Source of the DNA: Streptomyces changanensis
GTDB lineage: Bacteria > Actinomycetota > Actinomycetes > Streptomycetales > Streptomycetaceae
DNA length: 64,000 nt
Reading direction: 5' to 3'
NCBI RefSeq assembly: GCF_024600715.1
Contig: NZ_CP102332.1
Coordinates: forward strand, 4,712,001-4,776,000
Made by a program: the position numbers and the translations under genes. The notes below the pieces were generated by a model. It was given only the letters and a program-made list of their open reading frames with translations. It had not been told where the DNA came from and made no database searches. Positions 1 through 9,491 of the stretch are shown here, piece after piece (position 1 is the stretch's first letter; every line of letters begins with the position of its first letter).

Positions 1-501
1 GACCGGGAGCCCCTGCTGCGCGACACGCTGCGGCTGCTCGCCTCACCCGACCGGCCCACCGGTCCCGGCGACCGGCTCATCACCCTGCGCGCCTTCGAGA
101 TGGCGCTCGTCCTGGCGCTCCGGCCCCTGCTGCGCGACCTCACCGAGAAGCCGGGCGTCCTGCCCGTCCTGCACCACCCGGGCATCAGCCGCGCCATGGT
201 CATGATCGCCACCCGGTTCGCCGAACCCTGGACGATCGAGTCCCTCGCCCGCGAGGTCGGCATGTCCCGCTCGGCCTTCACCGCCGCCTTCCGCGAGCTC
301 GTCGGCGAGGCGCCCGCCCGCCACCTGACGGGGCGGCGGATGCAGGAGGCGGCCCGGCTGCTGTGCGAGACCTCGCTGCCGCAGTCGGCCGTGCCGCAGC
401 GGGTGGGGTACCAGAGCGCGGTCGGCTTCCACCTGGCGTTCCGCAAGTGGTTCGGCAAGACCCCGGGGGAGTACCGGTCGCACGCGGCGAACGTCGCGTG
501 A
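1..501 (+). CDS. AraC-family transcriptional regulator (3' part)
   Basis: The frame is open from base 1 and ends at TGA 499-501, giving 166 visible residues; the 5' end lies outside the window. The C-terminal 100 residues form an AraC-type double helix-turn-helix. The first helix pair is around 'ESLAREVGMSRSAFTAAFRE', the second around 'VPQRVGYQSAVGFHLAFRKW', and the closing 'FGKTPGEYR' is the family signature. The visible N-terminal part fits the end of a cupin-type sensor domain (AraC_binding_2-like), so the protein probably senses a small ligand and controls nearby genes. It is co-directional with the PrnB-like operon starting at 1385 and could regulate it, but about 880 nt separate them, so this is only inference. 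Confidence 0.85.
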   Translation, partial: DREPLLRDTLRLLASPDRPTGPGDRLITLRAFEMALVLALRPLLRDLTEKPGVLPVLHHPGISRAMVMIATRFAEPWTIESLAREVGMSRSAFTAAFRELVGEAPARHLTGRRMQEAARLLCETSLPQSAVPQRVGYQSAVGFHLAFRKWFGKTPGEYRSHAANVA

Positions 502-607
502 CCCGGCCCCGGCCCGGCCCGGGCGGTCGCGTGACGCCGCCCCGGCCGGGCGCGCCGCTCCCCGCGTACGGGAACATTCCGGTCGCAACGGTACGCGAAG
601 GCTGGCC

Positions 608-621
608 GGTTCTTAAGGACC
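608..621. promoter_or_regulatory. Imperfect palindrome, possible operator
   Basis: GGTTCTTAAGGACC is a 14-nt imperfect dyad centred on CTTAAG. It lies in a locally AT-richer stretch between the AraC gene and the first frame with a good ribosome site (699). It could be a regulator site for the downstream PrnB-like operon. No second copy was seen. Confidence 0.3.
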
Positions 622-698
622 GCTGGACGGTCGTTCATTGCCGCAGGTGGCCGGGGGCGGACAGGCTCTGCAGGGCGCAGCCGTTCCGCGGAGGAGAC

Positions 699-863
699 AT
701 GGTGACCAGGTCGGGTCAGGATTACTCGCAGTCGCGACGCGACGGCCGCGTGACGGGGCCCGACGGCATGCCCGGCGCGGCGGCCACTGCCGGTACCTCC
801 CCGCGCTCCGCCCCGCGTGCCGCGGCGGCCTCGCCGCTCCCGCCGGCCCGCCGGGAGCGGTGA
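699..863 (+). CDS. Possible 54-residue small protein (unrecognised)
   Basis: ATG at 699 follows GGAGGAG a few bases upstream, one of the best ribosome sites in this part of the window. The 54 residues are Arg/Ala/Pro/Ser-rich with no domain, signal peptide or transmembrane segment; there is one Tyr and no Trp or Cys. TGA at 861-863 is followed after one base by GTG 865, which opens another low-complexity frame. It may be a genuine leader gene of the PrnB-like operon, a leader peptide, or a chance frame in GC-rich DNA. I do not recognise the product. Confidence 0.3.
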   Translation: MVTRSGQDYSQSRRDGRVTGPDGMPGAAATAGTSPRSAPRAAAASPLPPARRER

Positions 864-864
864 C

Positions 865-1266
865 GTGCCTGCGGCGGGTACGGCGCGGGCACCGCACGCC
901 TGCGCCCCGCCGCCCCTGACCGCGGCCCCGGCGGCCACCGGCGCCGCGCCCCCACCCCCCGGCGACGGCCCCCCGCGCACGAGCGGGGACCACCCCGCCG
1001 ACGCGGCGGCCACCACCCGCACCACCCCCGGGGCCCCGGCCGCCCCCGCGGCTCCCGCCGCCCCCGCCGTCCCCGCGGCCTTCGCCGCCGCTCGCGTCCG
1101 TACCCCCGGACGGGCGGCGCCGCCCGCGCGGACCCCCTGCTCGCGTACGGCCCCGCCGTCCGGCGCCGTCCTCGCGGCGGCCGCCCCGCGCCCCGTGCGA
1201 CCGCGCCCGCCCGCCCCCGTACCGGCGGCCACCCCGCGCCAGGGCCGGGTGAGCGCCCCGCGGTGA
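865..1266 (+). CDS. Doubtful Ala/Pro/Thr-rich ORF (133 aa)
   Basis: This GTG-started frame covers most of the 520-nt gap before the PrnB-like gene. It has a GGGAG sequence 8 nt upstream and begins one base after the preceding small frame ends. Third codon positions are mostly G or C, as in real Streptomyces genes, but composition is almost entirely Ala, Pro, Thr, Arg and Gly with no fold visible. The same Pro/Ala/Thr bias occurs in the N-terminal extension of the flavin hydroxylase downstream. It could be a disordered protein or non-coding C-rich DNA. From 1267 to 1384 I see nothing except the AGAGGGGCC ribosome site at about 1371-1379. Confidence 0.2.
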   Translation: MPAAGTARAPHACAPPPLTAAPAATGAAPPPPGDGPPRTSGDHPADAAATTRTTPGAPAAPAAPAAPAVPAAFAAARVRTPGRAAPPARTPCSRTAPPSGAVLAAAAPRPVRPRPPAPVPAATPRQGRVSAPR

Positions 1267-1384
1267 CGCCGGGGGCCCGGCGGGGCGCACACGCCACACC
1301 GCCACCCCCGCCGCGGTCCGCCCGAGGGCCCGACCGCGACCACCCCGTCCACACCCGCCACACCCGCCCGAGAGGGGCCTTCCG

Positions 1385-2506
1385 TTGAGCCTGTACGACG
1401 TCGTCGAGCCAGGACTCGTCACCTGCGCCGAACCGCGCTACCGCATCGCCGAGATACGCGCCGCCGACCCGCTCGGCGCCGACGCGGTCCTCGCCGCCGT
1501 CCCCGGCATCAACCGGGACGCGGACACCGCCGCCCTCACCGTCGCCCTGCGCGCCCTCGTCCCCGACCTCGACCGGGTCGCCGGGTGGAGCGTCGTGGAG
1601 GCCCTGGCCGGAATGCGGGACCTGGGGGTGCTCCTCGGCTCCCTCAAACGCCACGGCACCGAACCCGTCGCCGCGGTGCCGGAGGTCCTGCCCGTCCTGG
1701 AGGAGCTGGGCCGCCGCACCGACATGGTGCCGCGCGACACGGTCCACCACTACACGACCTGGAACCCGCTCGGCCGGCGCCGCCGCAGCTACACCGGATC
1801 GGAGACGGAGGCCCACCTCCAGGACGCCGTCCGGATGGTCTTCCCGGGCCTCGTCGCCGCCCTCGGCACCTGCGGGGAGCTGGCCCGCCTCGAACCGTAC
1901 GACCCGGGCTTCGCCTGCGCACTGGACCGCACCGCACAGCACGTCCAGTCCATGGTCGACTCGATCGACTTCACCGTCGCCCACGTCGCGCCCGAGTTCT
2001 TCGCCCGCACGCTGCGCCCGTACTTCGAGGGGATCGACGTCGCGGGCCGCGAGTACCTCGGCCCGGCCGCCGCGCAGGTCCCGCTCTGGCTGGTCGACCT
2101 GACGCTTTGGCAGAGCGACCGCTCGGACCCCCGGTACGACGCCTTCCTCGACGAGTCCGTGCGGTACAGCCTGCCGTCCTGGCGGGCCTTCCACGCCGCG
2201 CACCGCGGCGGCGTCTCCGCCGTGGGCAAGCTCACCGCCGCGCTCAGCTGGGAGAGCGGGCACCGGACGCCGCCCGCCCTCACGGCCGCGGCCGTGTCCC
2301 TGACGCGGGTGCTGCGGCTGCTGAAGACCTTCCGCGCCCGTCACCTCGGCATCGCCCGCAAGGCGTACCACGACGACCTGCGCCTCTACGAGACGGGAAG
2401 CGGCGGCGCCCCGGTGGCCCTGCTCCGCTCGGTCCTCGACCTGACCCGGGACAACGAGAACCTGGTCCGCCGCGCCACGGTCCCGCCCCGCACCCCGGCC
2501 GCCTGA
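1385..2506 (+). CDS. PrnB-family heme enzyme (TDO/IDO superfamily)
   Basis: This 373-residue protein matches PrnB (monodechloroaminopyrrolnitrin synthase, formerly DUF1864), which rearranges 7-chlorotryptophan in pyrrolnitrin biosynthesis; PrnB is about 361 residues. Collinear shared blocks as I remember PrnB: 'PGINRDAD' (40-47), 'LGSLKRHG' (84-91), 'WNP' then 'RSYTG' (126-138), 'YLGP' (224-227), the 'FRARHL' segment and the 'GSGG' loop (338-341). His320 aligns with the proximal heme ligand His313 of PrnB. The start is TTG 1385, behind AGAGGGGCC; no better codon lies close by. The flavin hydroxylase follows after 14 nt, so the two form an operon. No halogenase (PrnA) or Rieske oxygenase (PrnD) is nearby, so the substrate is probably not chlorotryptophan. 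Family membership is well supported; substrate and product are unknown. Confidence 0.85.
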   Translation: MSLYDVVEPGLVTCAEPRYRIAEIRAADPLGADAVLAAVPGINRDADTAALTVALRALVPDLDRVAGWSVVEALAGMRDLGVLLGSLKRHGTEPVAAVPEVLPVLEELGRRTDMVPRDTVHHYTTWNPLGRRRRSYTGSETEAHLQDAVRMVFPGLVAALGTCGELARLEPYDPGFACALDRTAQHVQSMVDSIDFTVAHVAPEFFARTLRPYFEGIDVAGREYLGPAAAQVPLWLVDLTLWQSDRSDPRYDAFLDESVRYSLPSWRAFHAAHRGGVSAVGKLTAALSWESGHRTPPALTAAAVSLTRVLRLLKTFRARHLGIARKAYHDDLRLYETGSGGAPVALLRSVLDLTRDNENLVRRATVPPRTPAA

Positions 2507-2520
2507 GAGGACCACGCCAG

Positions 2521-4296
2521 ATGACTCCGGACACCACCCCGGACAGCACCTCCCGCACCCCGGGCGCCCCCCGCATCGCAGACGGCACCCCCGTCCCGGA
2601 TGGCACCCCCGCCCCGGACGGCACCCCCGCGCCGGCCAGGCCCGCGAGCACCGACCGGACGCCGACCCCGGTCCGGCCCGCGACCCCCGCCGACACGACC
2701 GCCGCCGACAGGCCCCCCGCCGACACGACCGCCGCCGACAGGACCCCGGCCGACACGACCGCCGCCCCGGGCAACGTCACCGACGGCGCTCCCGGCCCGC
2801 ACGCCACGCCCGACCCGACCCCCGGCACCACGTCCGCCCTCGGCACCGCCCCGGGCACCGCCCCGGGCGCCGTCGAGGACGCCACTCTGGGCGGCGGAGC
2901 GGGCGTCCGCCCCGACACCCCCGCCCGGCGGGCCGCCGCGCGCTGCGCCCTGCGCGACACGTCACCCGACATCCTCGTCGCGGGCGGCGGCGTCGCCGGG
3001 CTCACCACGGCGCTCGCGCTGCACGCCGCCGGCCACGGGCGGGTCACCGTCGTGGAGGCCGCGCCCGGGCTGCGGCCCCTCGGCGCGGGACTCAACCTCA
3101 TGCCCAACGCCGTGCGGGAGCTCGACGCGCTCGGCCTGCTCGACCGGCTGGAGGCCGACGCGGTCCGCACTCGCGAGCTGCGCTACTACCACCGCTGCGG
3201 CGCCCTGATCGCCCGTGAGGAGCGCGGTCTGCGCGCCGGCTACCGCTGGCCGCAGCTGTCCGTGCACCGCGCGCACCTCCAGCGCGTGCTCGCCGACGCC
3301 GTCGAGGAGCGCCTCGGCCCCGGCACGCTCGTCACCGGTGCCCGCGTCACCGGGGTGGAGCAACCGCCCGGCGGCGCGCGGCCGCGCGTGCGGATCGAGC
3401 ACTGCTCCGGCGGGGTGCGGGGCGTGACCCACCTCGAACCGGACGTGCTGGTCGGCGCGGACGGCATCCGCTCGGCGGTGCGGTCCGCGCTCCATCCGGA
3501 CGAGGGCGAGCCGCCGTGGAACGGCGTGCTGGTGTGGCGGGGCGTGTCGCCGATGGACGCCCACCGCACCGCGCCGTTCATGCTGGTGGCGGGCGACGAC
3601 CGGCAGAAGGCGGTCGTCTACCCGATGACCGAGCCGTCCCCGCGCCGCCCCGGGGTCCTCGTCAACTGGGCGCTGGCCATGCCGGCCGACGCCGTGGACG
3701 AGCGGTTCCTCGGCGACTGGAACCGGCCGGTCCCGGTCGAGCGGTTCCTCGACCACTACGCCGGCTGGGAGTTCGGCGGGGTCAGCGTCCCGGAGGTCCT
3801 GCGCGCGGCCGACGGCGCGTACGAGTACCCCATGGTGGACCGCGAGCCCCTCGGCCGCTGGAGCCACGGCCGCACCACCCTCGTCGGGGACGCGGCCCAC
3901 GCCATGTACCCGACCGGCTCCAACGGCGCCACCCAGTCGATCGTCGACGCTCGGGCCCTCGCCCACGCCCTGGGGGTCCACCGCGACCCGGTGGAGGCCC
4001 TCGCCGCCTACGACGCGCACCGGCGGCCGGCCATGACGGAGCTCCAGCGCGCCAACCGGCGCCTGGGGCCCGAGGCCGTCATCCACCTGGCCCACGAGCG
4101 GGCCCCCGGCGGGTTCACCGACGCCGACGCCGTCGTCCCCCCGGAGGAACGCCGCGCCATCGCCGCGCGGTACGCCGCCACGGGCGCGTTCGACCCGGAG
4201 GCGGTCAACCGGGGGACCCCGTACGCCGTGCCGGTGCGGGACCTGGCGGCCGCGCGCACCCGTCCGGGCGACACGCCGGTACGCGCGCGCCCCTGA
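2521..4296 (+). CDS. PhzS-like FAD-dependent monooxygenase with long Pro/Thr/Ala-rich N-terminus
   Basis: The 591-residue protein has a class A flavin hydroxylase core from about residue 150: 'DILVAGGGVAGL' (GxGxxG, FAD ADP), 'LVGADGIRSAVR' (DG motif), 'YPMVDREPL' and 'TLVGDAAHAMYPTGSNGA' (GD motif). The core resembles PhzS (phenazine 1-carboxylate-type hydroxylase) along its length, so it probably hydroxylates an aromatic ring using NAD(P)H and O2. Residues 1-149 are low-complexity Pro/Thr/Ala/Asp with repeated 'DGTPAP' and 'PADTTAADR' units. No ATG, GTG or TTG occurs in frame between 2524 and 2968, so this region should be translated from ATG 2521 (ribosome site AGAGG). PhzS itself starts only a few residues before its FAD motif. 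It is coupled to the PrnB-like gene and probably acts on that enzyme's product. Confidence 0.88.
   Translation: MTPDTTPDSTSRTPGAPRIADGTPVPDGTPAPDGTPAPARPASTDRTPTPVRPATPADTTAADRPPADTTAADRTPADTTAAPGNVTDGAPGPHATPDPTPGTTSALGTAPGTAPGAVEDATLGGGAGVRPDTPARRAAARCALRDTSPDILVAGGGVAGLTTALALHAAGHGRVTVVEAAPGLRPLGAGLNLMPNAVRELDALGLLDRLEADAVRTRELRYYHRCGALIAREERGLRAGYRWPQLSVHRAHLQRVLADAVEERLGPGTLVTGARVTGVEQPPGGARPRVRIEHCSGGVRGVTHLEPDVLVGADGIRSAVRSALHPDEGEPPWNGVLVWRGVSPMDAHRTAPFMLVAGDDRQKAVVYPMTEPSPRRPGVLVNWALAMPADAVDERFLGDWNRPVPVERFLDHYAGWEFGGVSVPEVLRAADGAYEYPMVDREPLGRWSHGRTTLVGDAAHAMYPTGSNGATQSIVDARALAHALGVHRDPVEALAAYDAHRRPAMTELQRANRRLGPEAVIHLAHERAPGGFTDADAVVPPEERRAIAARYAATGAFDPEAVNRGTPYAVPVRDLAAARTRPGDTPVRARP
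2573..2770. repeat. Coding minisatellite in the flavin hydroxylase N-terminus
   Basis: Two short in-frame tandem repeats are present. The first is an 18-nt unit (about 2.5 copies from 2585) encoding 'GTPxPD'. The second is a 30-nt unit (about 2.5 copies, 2695-2766) encoding 'PADTTAADRx'. Both lengths are multiples of three, so copy-number change keeps the frame. Confidence 0.6.
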
Positions 4297-7448: not shown

Positions 7449-9491
7449 CTACGGGAAGGTGAGCTTGAACCCGTTGATGTAGCCGGTGTCCTGCGCGGCC
7501 CGGTCCTGGACGCGGAGCTTCCAGGCGCCGTTGGCGACCTCGCTGGAGGCGTTGACCGTGTAGGTCGCCTTCACGTTGTCGGCCGAGTCGGACGAGCTGT
7601 ACGGCTTCAGGTTGTAGACCGAGCCGTCCGGGGCGACCAGGTCGACGACCAGGTCGCCGCGCCAGGTGTGGACGATGTCGACGTCGACCTTGAGGGCGGA
7701 GGGGGCGTTGCCCGCGACGCCGGTGACGTCGACGGTCGAGGTGACGGCGGCGCCGTTGTCCGGGATGGAGACGTCCGCGGTGTTCTCGAAGACCTTGCCC
7801 GTGCCCGGGTCGCCGCCACCGGGGCGGGCCCCGACGTTGACGCCGGCCCAGGCGTGCTCGACGGCCTTGACCTCGGCGCTGCCGGCGCCGTACAGCTCGG
7901 TGGCGACGGCGACCGTGCCGGTGCGGGCGCCCGCGTAGTTCGTGGTGCTGGTGAACTTGGTGGTGAGCGCCTTGAACCAGATCAGCGCGGCCTTGTCGCG
8001 GCCGATGCCGGTGACGGGCAACCCGTCGGAGGTCGGCGAGTCGTAGGCCACGCCGTTGATCGTCTTGGTGCCGCTGCCCTCGGAGAGCAGGTAGAACCAG
8101 TGGTTCGCCGGGCCCGAGGAGTAGTGGACGTCGATGCTGCCGATGCCCGAGTACCAGGCGTCCTTGGACGAGCCGTCCTTGCTCGGCTTGTCCATGTAGC
8201 GCAGCGGGGTGCCGTTGCCGCGGATGTCGATCTTCTCGCCGACGAGGTAGTCGCCGACGTCCTTGGCGTTGTTCGCGTGGAACTCGACCGCGGCGGCGAA
8301 GATGTCGGACGTCGCCTCGTTGAGGCCGCCGGACTCGCCGCTGTAGACGAGCTTGGCCGTGACCGAGGTCAGGCCGTGCGTCATCTCGTGCGCGGCGACG
8401 TCGATGGACGTGAGCGGCTTGGCGTTGCCGGAGCCGTCGCCGTACGTCATGCAGAAGCAGCTGTCCTGCCAGAACGCGTTGACGTAGTTGTTGCCGTAGT
8501 GGACGCGCGAGTACGCGCCGACGCCATCACCCCGGATGCCGGAGCGGCCGTGCACGTTCTTGTAGTAGTCCCAGGTGAGGGCCGCGCCGTAGTGGGCGTC
8601 GGCGCCCGCGGTCTCCAGGTTGGTCGGCGTGCCGTCGCCCCAGACGTCGTCGGAGCCGGAGAAGAGCGTCCCGGTGCCGGAGGTGCCGCGGTTGAGGTTG
8701 TACGTCTTGTGGCTGCCGCGCGCCGTGTCGGTCAGCGTGAAGTTGCTGCCGGACTGGGCGGTGCCCAGGGTGACCTGGCCGCTGTACTGGGTGTTGCCGG
8801 TCCCGTTGTGGACCGCCTGCCACTCGTACAGCTTGGCGCCCGTCGCGGCGTCGGTGACCACGTGCAGCTCGTTGGGGGTGCCGTCGTGCTGGAGGCCGCC
8901 CACGACGGTCTCGTACGCGAGGACGGGCTTGCCCTGGGCGAGCCACACCACCTTGCGGGGCGCCTGCTGCGCCTCGGTGGCCTTCGAGCCCTCGGCGCGG
9001 GCGGCGCCGAGCGCCTGCTTCTCGGCCGCGGCCGGGGCGACGTCGGCGCTGAGGTCGACGTTCTTCAGCTCCGCGCGGGCGGCCTTGGCGACCGCCTCGG
9101 TCCTCCCCGCCTTCGTCTCGGTGACGAGGAGGTCGCCGCCGAGGACCGGCAGGCCGGCGTACGTGCGCTCGTAGCGCGTGTGGGTCGTGCCGTCCCGGTC
9201 CTGCGTCACGTCGCGCACGACGAGCTTCTCCTGGGCGCCGAGACCCAGTTCCTTCGCGGTCTCGGCCTTGCCCGCGTCGGCCGCGCGGATGAGCGCGGTG
9301 CGCTGGGCGGGGGAGAGGTCGGCGGGGAGGGCGCCCGGATCGGCCTGGCCGGCGGCCTGGCCCTTCGGGGCCGCGGTGCCCCATGCGGCGCCGGCGGAGG
9401 CGGGTCCGGTCTGGACGCCCACGGCGAACATGGCGGCGGCGGCTATCAGAGCGCCCGTCGCGGTCGCGCGACGGCTTGGCGTGGATCTCAC
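7449..9491 (-). CDS. Secreted M4 zinc metalloprotease with C-terminal P-domain
   Basis: This thermolysin-like neutral protease has 680 residues. Order: signal peptide (basic start, hydrophobic core, cleavage near 'GPASA'), FTP and PepSY propeptide domains, the M4 catalytic domain with HEMTH (368-372) and the third zinc ligand in 'GGLNEATSD' (Glu392), the catalytic histidine in 'DVHYSSG' (His456), then a P-proprotein domain from about 572. The propeptide probably acts as an intramolecular chaperone and inhibitor, as in this family. GTG 9491 is chosen because AAAAGGAGT precedes it and the signal peptide begins there; the frame is open 32 codons further upstream. The P-domain may aid folding or substrate binding. 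It is transcribed away from the MerR gene. Confidence 0.93.
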   Translation of the reverse strand: MRSTPSRRATATGALIAAAAMFAVGVQTGPASAGAAWGTAAPKGQAAGQADPGALPADLSPAQRTALIRAADAGKAETAKELGLGAQEKLVVRDVTQDRDGTTHTRYERTYAGLPVLGGDLLVTETKAGRTEAVAKAARAELKNVDLSADVAPAAAEKQALGAARAEGSKATEAQQAPRKVVWLAQGKPVLAYETVVGGLQHDGTPNELHVVTDAATGAKLYEWQAVHNGTGNTQYSGQVTLGTAQSGSNFTLTDTARGSHKTYNLNRGTSGTGTLFSGSDDVWGDGTPTNLETAGADAHYGAALTWDYYKNVHGRSGIRGDGVGAYSRVHYGNNYVNAFWQDSCFCMTYGDGSGNAKPLTSIDVAAHEMTHGLTSVTAKLVYSGESGGLNEATSDIFAAAVEFHANNAKDVGDYLVGEKIDIRGNGTPLRYMDKPSKDGSSKDAWYSGIGSIDVHYSSGPANHWFYLLSEGSGTKTINGVAYDSPTSDGLPVTGIGRDKAALIWFKALTTKFTSTTNYAGARTGTVAVATELYGAGSAEVKAVEHAWAGVNVGARPGGGDPGTGKVFENTADVSIPDNGAAVTSTVDVTGVAGNAPSALKVDVDIVHTWRGDLVVDLVAPDGSVYNLKPYSSSDSADNVKATYTVNASSEVANGAWKLRVQDRAAQDTGYINGFKLTFP

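Follow-up and report, generated by a model that had tools for sequence, protein, structure and literature searches.

What does a PrnB-like heme protein do when its partner gene encodes a PhzS-like flavoenzyme? The question is raised by a 64,000-nucleotide (nt) stretch of the Streptomyces changanensis genome (GCF_024600715.1, NZ_CP102332.1, positions 4,712,001 to 4,776,000; G000:C1:4712001-4776000), hereafter called the window, in which a gene for a predicted heme protein of the PrnB branch is closely followed by a gene for a flavin adenine dinucleotide (FAD)-dependent aromatic monooxygenase (FMO). The pair is real, conserved, and selected. On balance, we favor the reading that what remains here is the oxidative core of an uncharacterized specialized-metabolite operon, probably AraC-controlled, which would act on a tryptophan-like substrate and then hydroxylate it. 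The coordinates of all features are collected in Table 1.

The PrnB-Like Protein and Its Flavoenzyme Neighbor

The open reading frame (ORF) 1385-2506 encodes 373 amino acids (aa) and starts with TTG, as do its counterparts in 7/7 relatives inspected. It matches the PrnB profile PF08933 with E 5.6e-37 (127.9 bits against a curated cut-off of 27) and, among solved structures, the PrnB entries 2v7i (E 8.3e-66) and 9dfg (E 5.1e-51). In the alignment to 2v7i, His320 falls on His at residue 313, which we take to be the heme ligand, and Tyr328 and Ser339, the latter in the GSGG loop, fall on Tyr321 and Ser332, presumably important residues as well. Each of the three is conserved in 41 of 42 aligned rows, which comprise the window and 41 of the 80 loci described below, chosen for diversity. 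The assignment to the PrnB branch with this histidine and loop, as proposed in the sequence-only reading, is thus borne out by the profile match and by sequence alignment to the PrnB structures. With the chain numbering shifted for an assumed 20-residue tag, Ser339 aligns with Ser319 of FbPrnB and Tyr123 with FbPrnB Tyr104. FbPrnB Ser319 is described as a contact to the substrate carboxylate (PMC11791213).

The ORF 2521-4296 begins after a gap of 14 nt (2507-2520) and contains an FAD_binding_3 domain. It scores 490.6 bits with the NCBIfam model NF005720 (cut-off 400), which is titled just "hypothetical protein." The best solved relatives, 2rgj/3c96, are matched over the catalytic core with E ~1e-81; their entry title is only "Flavin-containing monooxygenase," and we assume them to be PhzS. 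A PhzS-like flavoenzyme 14 nt behind the PrnB-like gene had been noted in the sequence-only reading and is confirmed here. The called FMO measures 591 aa in the window, 584 in L089, 511 in L090, and 484 in L141.

Two overlapping collections were used to follow the pair. Among 392 genomes in the genus, 49 carry PF08933 (own genome counted), and 50 loci were fetched from them (genus set), and the best 80 of 91 loci were retained from a scan of named genomes (named set). Many genomes are shared between the sets, so their counts are not additive, and the 80 named loci are not independent, since 55 of them are one Streptomyces locus, here called type I (L089-L142 and L157), with glgP in view in 53/55. 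Genes were called with a home-made caller, and Pfam scans were run on one representative locus per type.

An FMO homologue adjoins the PF08933 gene in 40/50 loci of the genus set, the window's own counted (the other ten are L039, L057, L073, L080, and L082-L087). In the named set, an FMO match on the same strand and starting within 3 kb of the end of the prnB match was present in 71/80 loci, including L131, whose FMO is split. The co-occurrence that was sought elsewhere is therefore conserved. The pair occurs in varied surroundings (glgP, trpD, and others), and the taxa that carry it include Kitasatospora, Plantactinospora, Verrucosispora, Micromonospora, Nonomuraea, Thermocrispum, and a Neisseriaceae contig. 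Furthermore, pairwise distances of the PrnB-like proteins and of the FMO proteins are correlated at 0.97 over 69 loci (2 of the 71 were dropped, having FMO matches of 300 residues or fewer) and at 0.964 for the 17 non-type-I loci alone, values each reached by 0/2000 permutations. A PrnB-FMO read-through exists in L126. It was initially viewed as strong fusion evidence and is now weighted lightly because the fused protein retains the apparent old FMO start; it may reflect no more than a lost stop codon or an error in the sequence.

The Type I Operon and Its Reduction in the Window

In Streptomyces, the pair usually stands last in an operon that comprises an AraC regulator, an HpaB-type flavin hydroxylase, an exporter of the major facilitator superfamily (MFS), the PrnB-like protein, and the FMO. 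The complete type I order is nmrA-like (divergent), araC/cupin, hpaB, MFS exporter, prnB-like, FMO, glgP, and at least three oxygenases are encoded in most operons of the Streptomyces relatives. The window opens inside the araC gene, whose start lies upstream, with the divergent NmrA-like gene further upstream (whole context in L088).

The araC-prnB interval is in view in 52 type I named loci (the 55 minus L094, L099, and L108), and 45 of these gave tblastn matches for HpaB as well as for MFS. An HpaB match is absent in L089 and L138 and limited to 86 residues in L115; an MFS match is absent in L089, L102, L115, L119, L122, L132, and L138. Both genes are missing from the 883-base interval of the window, which holds relics of them (Table 1). 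DNA similarity to the MFS 3' end was detected by blastn in 5/11 loci compared (L042, L050, L067, L068, and L071), and the L090 MFS protein gave no tblastn match at E ≤ 1. For the stretch leading up to and including the hpaB start, DNA similarity was seen in 11/11 loci compared; in L078 it covers just the element described below. The PrnB-like protein of strain DH12 (L089) is 97% identical to that of the window, and its locus aligns with the window across the entire interval, likewise without hpaB and exporter. Strain TRM49041 (L090), with 89% identity in the PrnB-like protein, has both genes. Since DH12 lacks the two genes and TRM49041 possesses them, the loss most likely occurred on the window's branch.

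The 38-base element between araC and hpaB was preserved. It is found with at most 6 mismatches in 48/52 type I loci and as a variant with 11 mismatches in L135, L136, L137, and L140, and composition-shuffled loci never gave fewer than 14. In 25 other loci the count is 12-17, the lowest values (L144 and L150) lying slightly below the shuffled minimum. In the own genome the core occurs once exactly and once more with 3 mismatches. Between the window and DH12, identity is 97.9% in 601-648, 95.6% in 649-693, 85-89% in the relics and filler, and ~96% in the coding flanks. The element may be the promoter/operator of the operon, perhaps bound by the AraC protein.

Both retained genes are under purifying selection after the loss. 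Comparing the window with L089 gives a ratio of nonsynonymous to synonymous substitution (dN/dS) of 0.116 in the PrnB-like gene (13 nonsynonymous and 39 synonymous differences) and of 0.092 in the FMO core, while glgP has 0.081 and the neighboring protease gene at 7449 has 0.249. The value for the whole FMO, 0.336, includes the low-complexity extension, where the alignment is unreliable.

Table 1. Features of the window and of related regions elsewhere in the same genome.
Feature	Position	Strand	Basis or remark
AraC/cupin-family regulator gene, 3' part	1..501	+	HTH_18 E 4.9e-21; orthologous to ARAC (c4) of relatives
Conserved promoter/operator-like element, palindrome CGGTTCTTAAGGACCG at 607-622	603..640	+	Conservation across type I loci
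hpaB 5'-end relic, first 23 codons recognizable	699..767	+	tblastn to L090 HpaB residues 1-23, 73.9%, E 1.7e-6
MFS exporter 3'-end relic, DNA similarity only	1049..1267	+	blastn, 71-77%
PrnB-branch protein, predicted His-ligated heme (heme-dependent aromatic oxygenase superfamily)	1385..2506	+	PF08933, 2v7i match, His320
PhzS-like FAD-dependent aromatic monooxygenase (FMO)	2521..4296	+	NF005720, FAD_binding_3, 2rgj/3c96
Low-complexity N-terminal extension of FMO, ~140 aa, Pro/Thr/Asp/Ala-rich	2521-2946	+	Catalytic core from ~2947
Two phenazine-type core clusters, own genome outside the window	L169:11741-18020; L170:4203-9981		PhzA/B and called proteins
Further FMO of the window's kind, 46% identical	L169:6655-7875	Other strand	~4 kb from PhzB gene of that phz cluster

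Other Versions of the Cluster

Several versions of the cluster carry further genes around the same pair. Type II comprises L043, L046, L052, and L059 as well as nine named loci (L143-L148, L150, L152, and L155), in which a ketosynthase (9/9), a DsbA-like protein (9/9), a second FMO (8/9), TrpC (7/9), and a berberine-bridge-type oxidase (6/9) were found, the contigs of L143 and L148 being short. The cluster TrpC is additional to another TrpC in 4/4 type II genomes searched, with one TGA in the cluster match of G345, and the own genome of the window has one full-length TrpC. The TrpD next to the type II clusters was left out of their gene content because it lies on the opposite strand and is followed by genes conserved among these loci (c27-c29).

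Type III (L161-L164 and L168) adds an LCM-type methyltransferase (Pfam on L162), which is fused to the FMO in L162-L164, representing the three genera Verrucosispora, Micromonospora, and Nonomuraea. In Thermocrispum (L160) PrnB-FMO is accompanied by a ketosynthase, KAS III, and an acyl carrier protein, and the Neisseriaceae contig (L166) has araC, nmrA, prnB, FMO, hpaB, and MFS at 39-52% identity. The versions with a second TrpC, with a ketosynthase, or with a methyltransferase hint at tryptophan or an indole as substrate, and the extra TrpC is the best hint of such chemistry.

Proposed Role of the Pair and Alternative Explanations

Our best guess for the substrate is tryptophan or a derivative. 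The ligand of the PrnB-like enzyme would be an aromatic amino acid, most probably L-tryptophan or one of its derivatives, which the enzyme would oxidize or rearrange. The PhzS-like enzyme may next hydroxylate the product and might remove a carboxylate in doing so, as PhzS does. In the relatives, HpaB would hydroxylate the ring once more, and export of the product would fall to the MFS protein. In the strain of the window, a less hydroxylated product might be exported by another route, or the two-step product might be used as such. The two-step route suggested in the sequence-only reading is incomplete for the family because of the hpaB and exporter genes of the usual operon and the extra genes of the other versions, and it may still describe what this strain retains.

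Several observations weigh against this proposal. The TrpC hint is restricted to type II, whereas the window belongs to type I, and 9/80 named loci have no adjacent FMO (L113, L149, L151, L153, L154, L156, L158, L165, and L167). In L113 the FMO was lost between prnB and glgP, in L138 the heme ligand is replaced by Pro and Ser339 by Gly, and the prnB of G015 and the FMO of L131 are split. Given the decay in these four, some lineages can do without the locus.

A narrower version of the proposal, possible and clearly less likely than the proposal itself, regards the PrnB-like protein as a simple tryptophan or indole hydroxylase, with further hydroxyls added by FMO and HpaB and without ring rearrangement. 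It is consistent with the three hydroxylase-type enzymes of the usual operon and with the PrnB homologue PdnC, which is predicted to hydroxylate the tryptophan indole in a report that also cites heme-dependent tryptophan hydroxylases such as Luz15 (PMC13036774). However, PdnC is stated not to share a clade with Luz15 (PMC13036774), and the product of PrnB itself is described as non-oxygenated (PMC11791213).

It is unlikely, in our estimate, that the pair is a dying leftover without present function in the window's lineage. The missing hpaB and exporter genes would suit such an origin, as would the decay in the related lineages L138, L113, L131, and G015, but when the two strains lacking those genes are compared, each gene of the pair has a dN/dS of ~0.1, and the promoter-like element is preserved.

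A similarly doubtful explanation is that the FMO, beyond being a downstream hydroxylase, is a dedicated activating partner of the PrnB-like heme enzyme, which would supply electrons or reduced oxygen to it or remove an inhibitory product. Purified PrnB was inactive, and partner proteins, cofactors, or modifications are considered as possibly missing (PMC11791213); an FMO partner would be among such components. If true, this explanation would make the two proteins an obligate pair of heme and flavin oxygenases that could be used for reconstituting PrnB-type chemistry.

Phenazine and pyrrolnitrin genes were also looked for. In the own genome there are two PhzA/B genes, both outside the window and each within an apparent phz cluster as read from the called proteins. 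The supposed lack of phenazine core genes thus holds for the window as to PhzA/B and not for the genome. Searching the own genome with the halogenase profile PF04820, which also gives matches in 5/14 control genomes, returned five partial matches, the best with 50.8 bits. Within the window it picks up nothing but the FMO, right at the cut-off (C1:4714968), so that the pair stands outside a pyrrolnitrin locus as claimed earlier; this search covered the flavin halogenases PrnA and PrnC, and the Rieske oxygenase PrnD was not searched for. That the FMO is a trans-acting phenazine tailoring hydroxylase working as a genuine PhzS, with the PrnB-like gene a chance neighbor, is very improbable and not favored as its main role, because, despite the two phenazine clusters and closest solved relatives (2rgj/3c96) that are presumably PhzS, PhzA/B occurs in only 7/40 pair-bearing genomes of the genus set and is absent in 33/40, a further FMO (46% identical) lies near one own phz cluster, and FMOs widely adjoin PrnB-like proteins and diverge in step with them.

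The preferred reading, an oxidative core of a specialized-metabolite operon, thus concerns a larger gene cluster that is present in many actinobacteria and apparently unstudied; no publication on it surfaced by title or abstract in searches of one open-access library, which is weak evidence of absence. A large PrnB-branch group with a conserved FMO neighbor, FMO fusions, a conserved promoter-like element, and minimal two-gene strains is a directly testable system, and the pairing of heme and flavin enzymes may shed light on how PrnB-type enzymes become functional.

PrnB-Branch Loci Without the Flavoenzyme

A distinct PrnB-branch clade (~30-35% identity) without FMO is formed by L073, L080, and L082-L087. 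Its neighbors resemble a GHMP kinase (c12), a pyridoxal phosphate (PLP) decarboxylase (c13), and apparently a glycosyltransferase (c14, no NCBIfam match) in 8/8 loci, and a methyltransferase (c17) in 7/8; these families were read from L083 only, all below cut-off. In L149 (8210-10041) and L151 (8303-10065), FMO-less PrnB-like genes lie immediately 3' of a class I methyltransferase-like gene (Pfam on L149 only), and L154 is similar judging by gene sizes. In L158 (7703-10074), a PrnB-like gene lies 26 nt 3' of a gene for a luciferase-like monooxygenase, perhaps a different flavoenzyme partner, with an apparently TrpB-like PLP enzyme nearby on the other strand. The Pfam family PF08933 is broader than PrnB proper, as L039 shows. 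Its PF08933 protein (L039:8464-9696) scores 319 bits, far above the PrnB-like group, fails to match the window protein by tblastn at E 1e-8, and is by these scores a separate branch of the family.

Comparison With Known Systems

The superfamily context of heme-dependent aromatic oxygenases is given in PMC11904535. As to a sequence relation to IDO/TDO, profile A1 reaches 1zee/2nwb (a Shewanella protein, judged by SO number) at 2e-15, IDO1 only at E ~0.03, and, among the listed matches, no TDO at E ≤ 1. The window protein shares with PrnB, the monodechloroaminopyrrolnitrin synthase (2v7i and 9dfg), the PF08933 match, the His, the GSGG-loop Ser, and the Tyr at the 2v7i Tyr321 position, and it is 38% identical to Pseudomonas PfPrnB and 32% to FbPrnB over ~347 aligned positions. 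It differs in having a PhzS-like flavoenzyme partner instead of a neighboring flavin halogenase, and its group forms a separate set in the tree; the exact place of PfPrnB and FbPrnB is uncertain and was not used because both are long branches.

The FMO resembles PhzS-type FAD monooxygenases in exceeding the subfamily cut-off of NF005720 and in its catalytic core. In contrast to PhzS, it lies outside a phenazine cluster, has a conserved PrnB-like neighbor, and carries a long low-complexity N-terminus in this lineage. The third enzyme of the relatives resembles the two-component oxygenases of the HpaB (4-hydroxyphenylacetate 3-hydroxylase) type in its HpaB_N and HpaB domains (L045 tested), but it scores below both HpaB equivalog cut-offs, and the window keeps a relic only. 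Another PrnB-family protein outside pyrrolnitrin biosynthesis is PdnC of the paenidepsin cluster in Paenibacillus, which is likewise predicted to act on tryptophan (PMC13036774). PdnC is likened here by its description, not by sequence, and is reported in a nonribosomal peptide synthetase context (PMC13036774).

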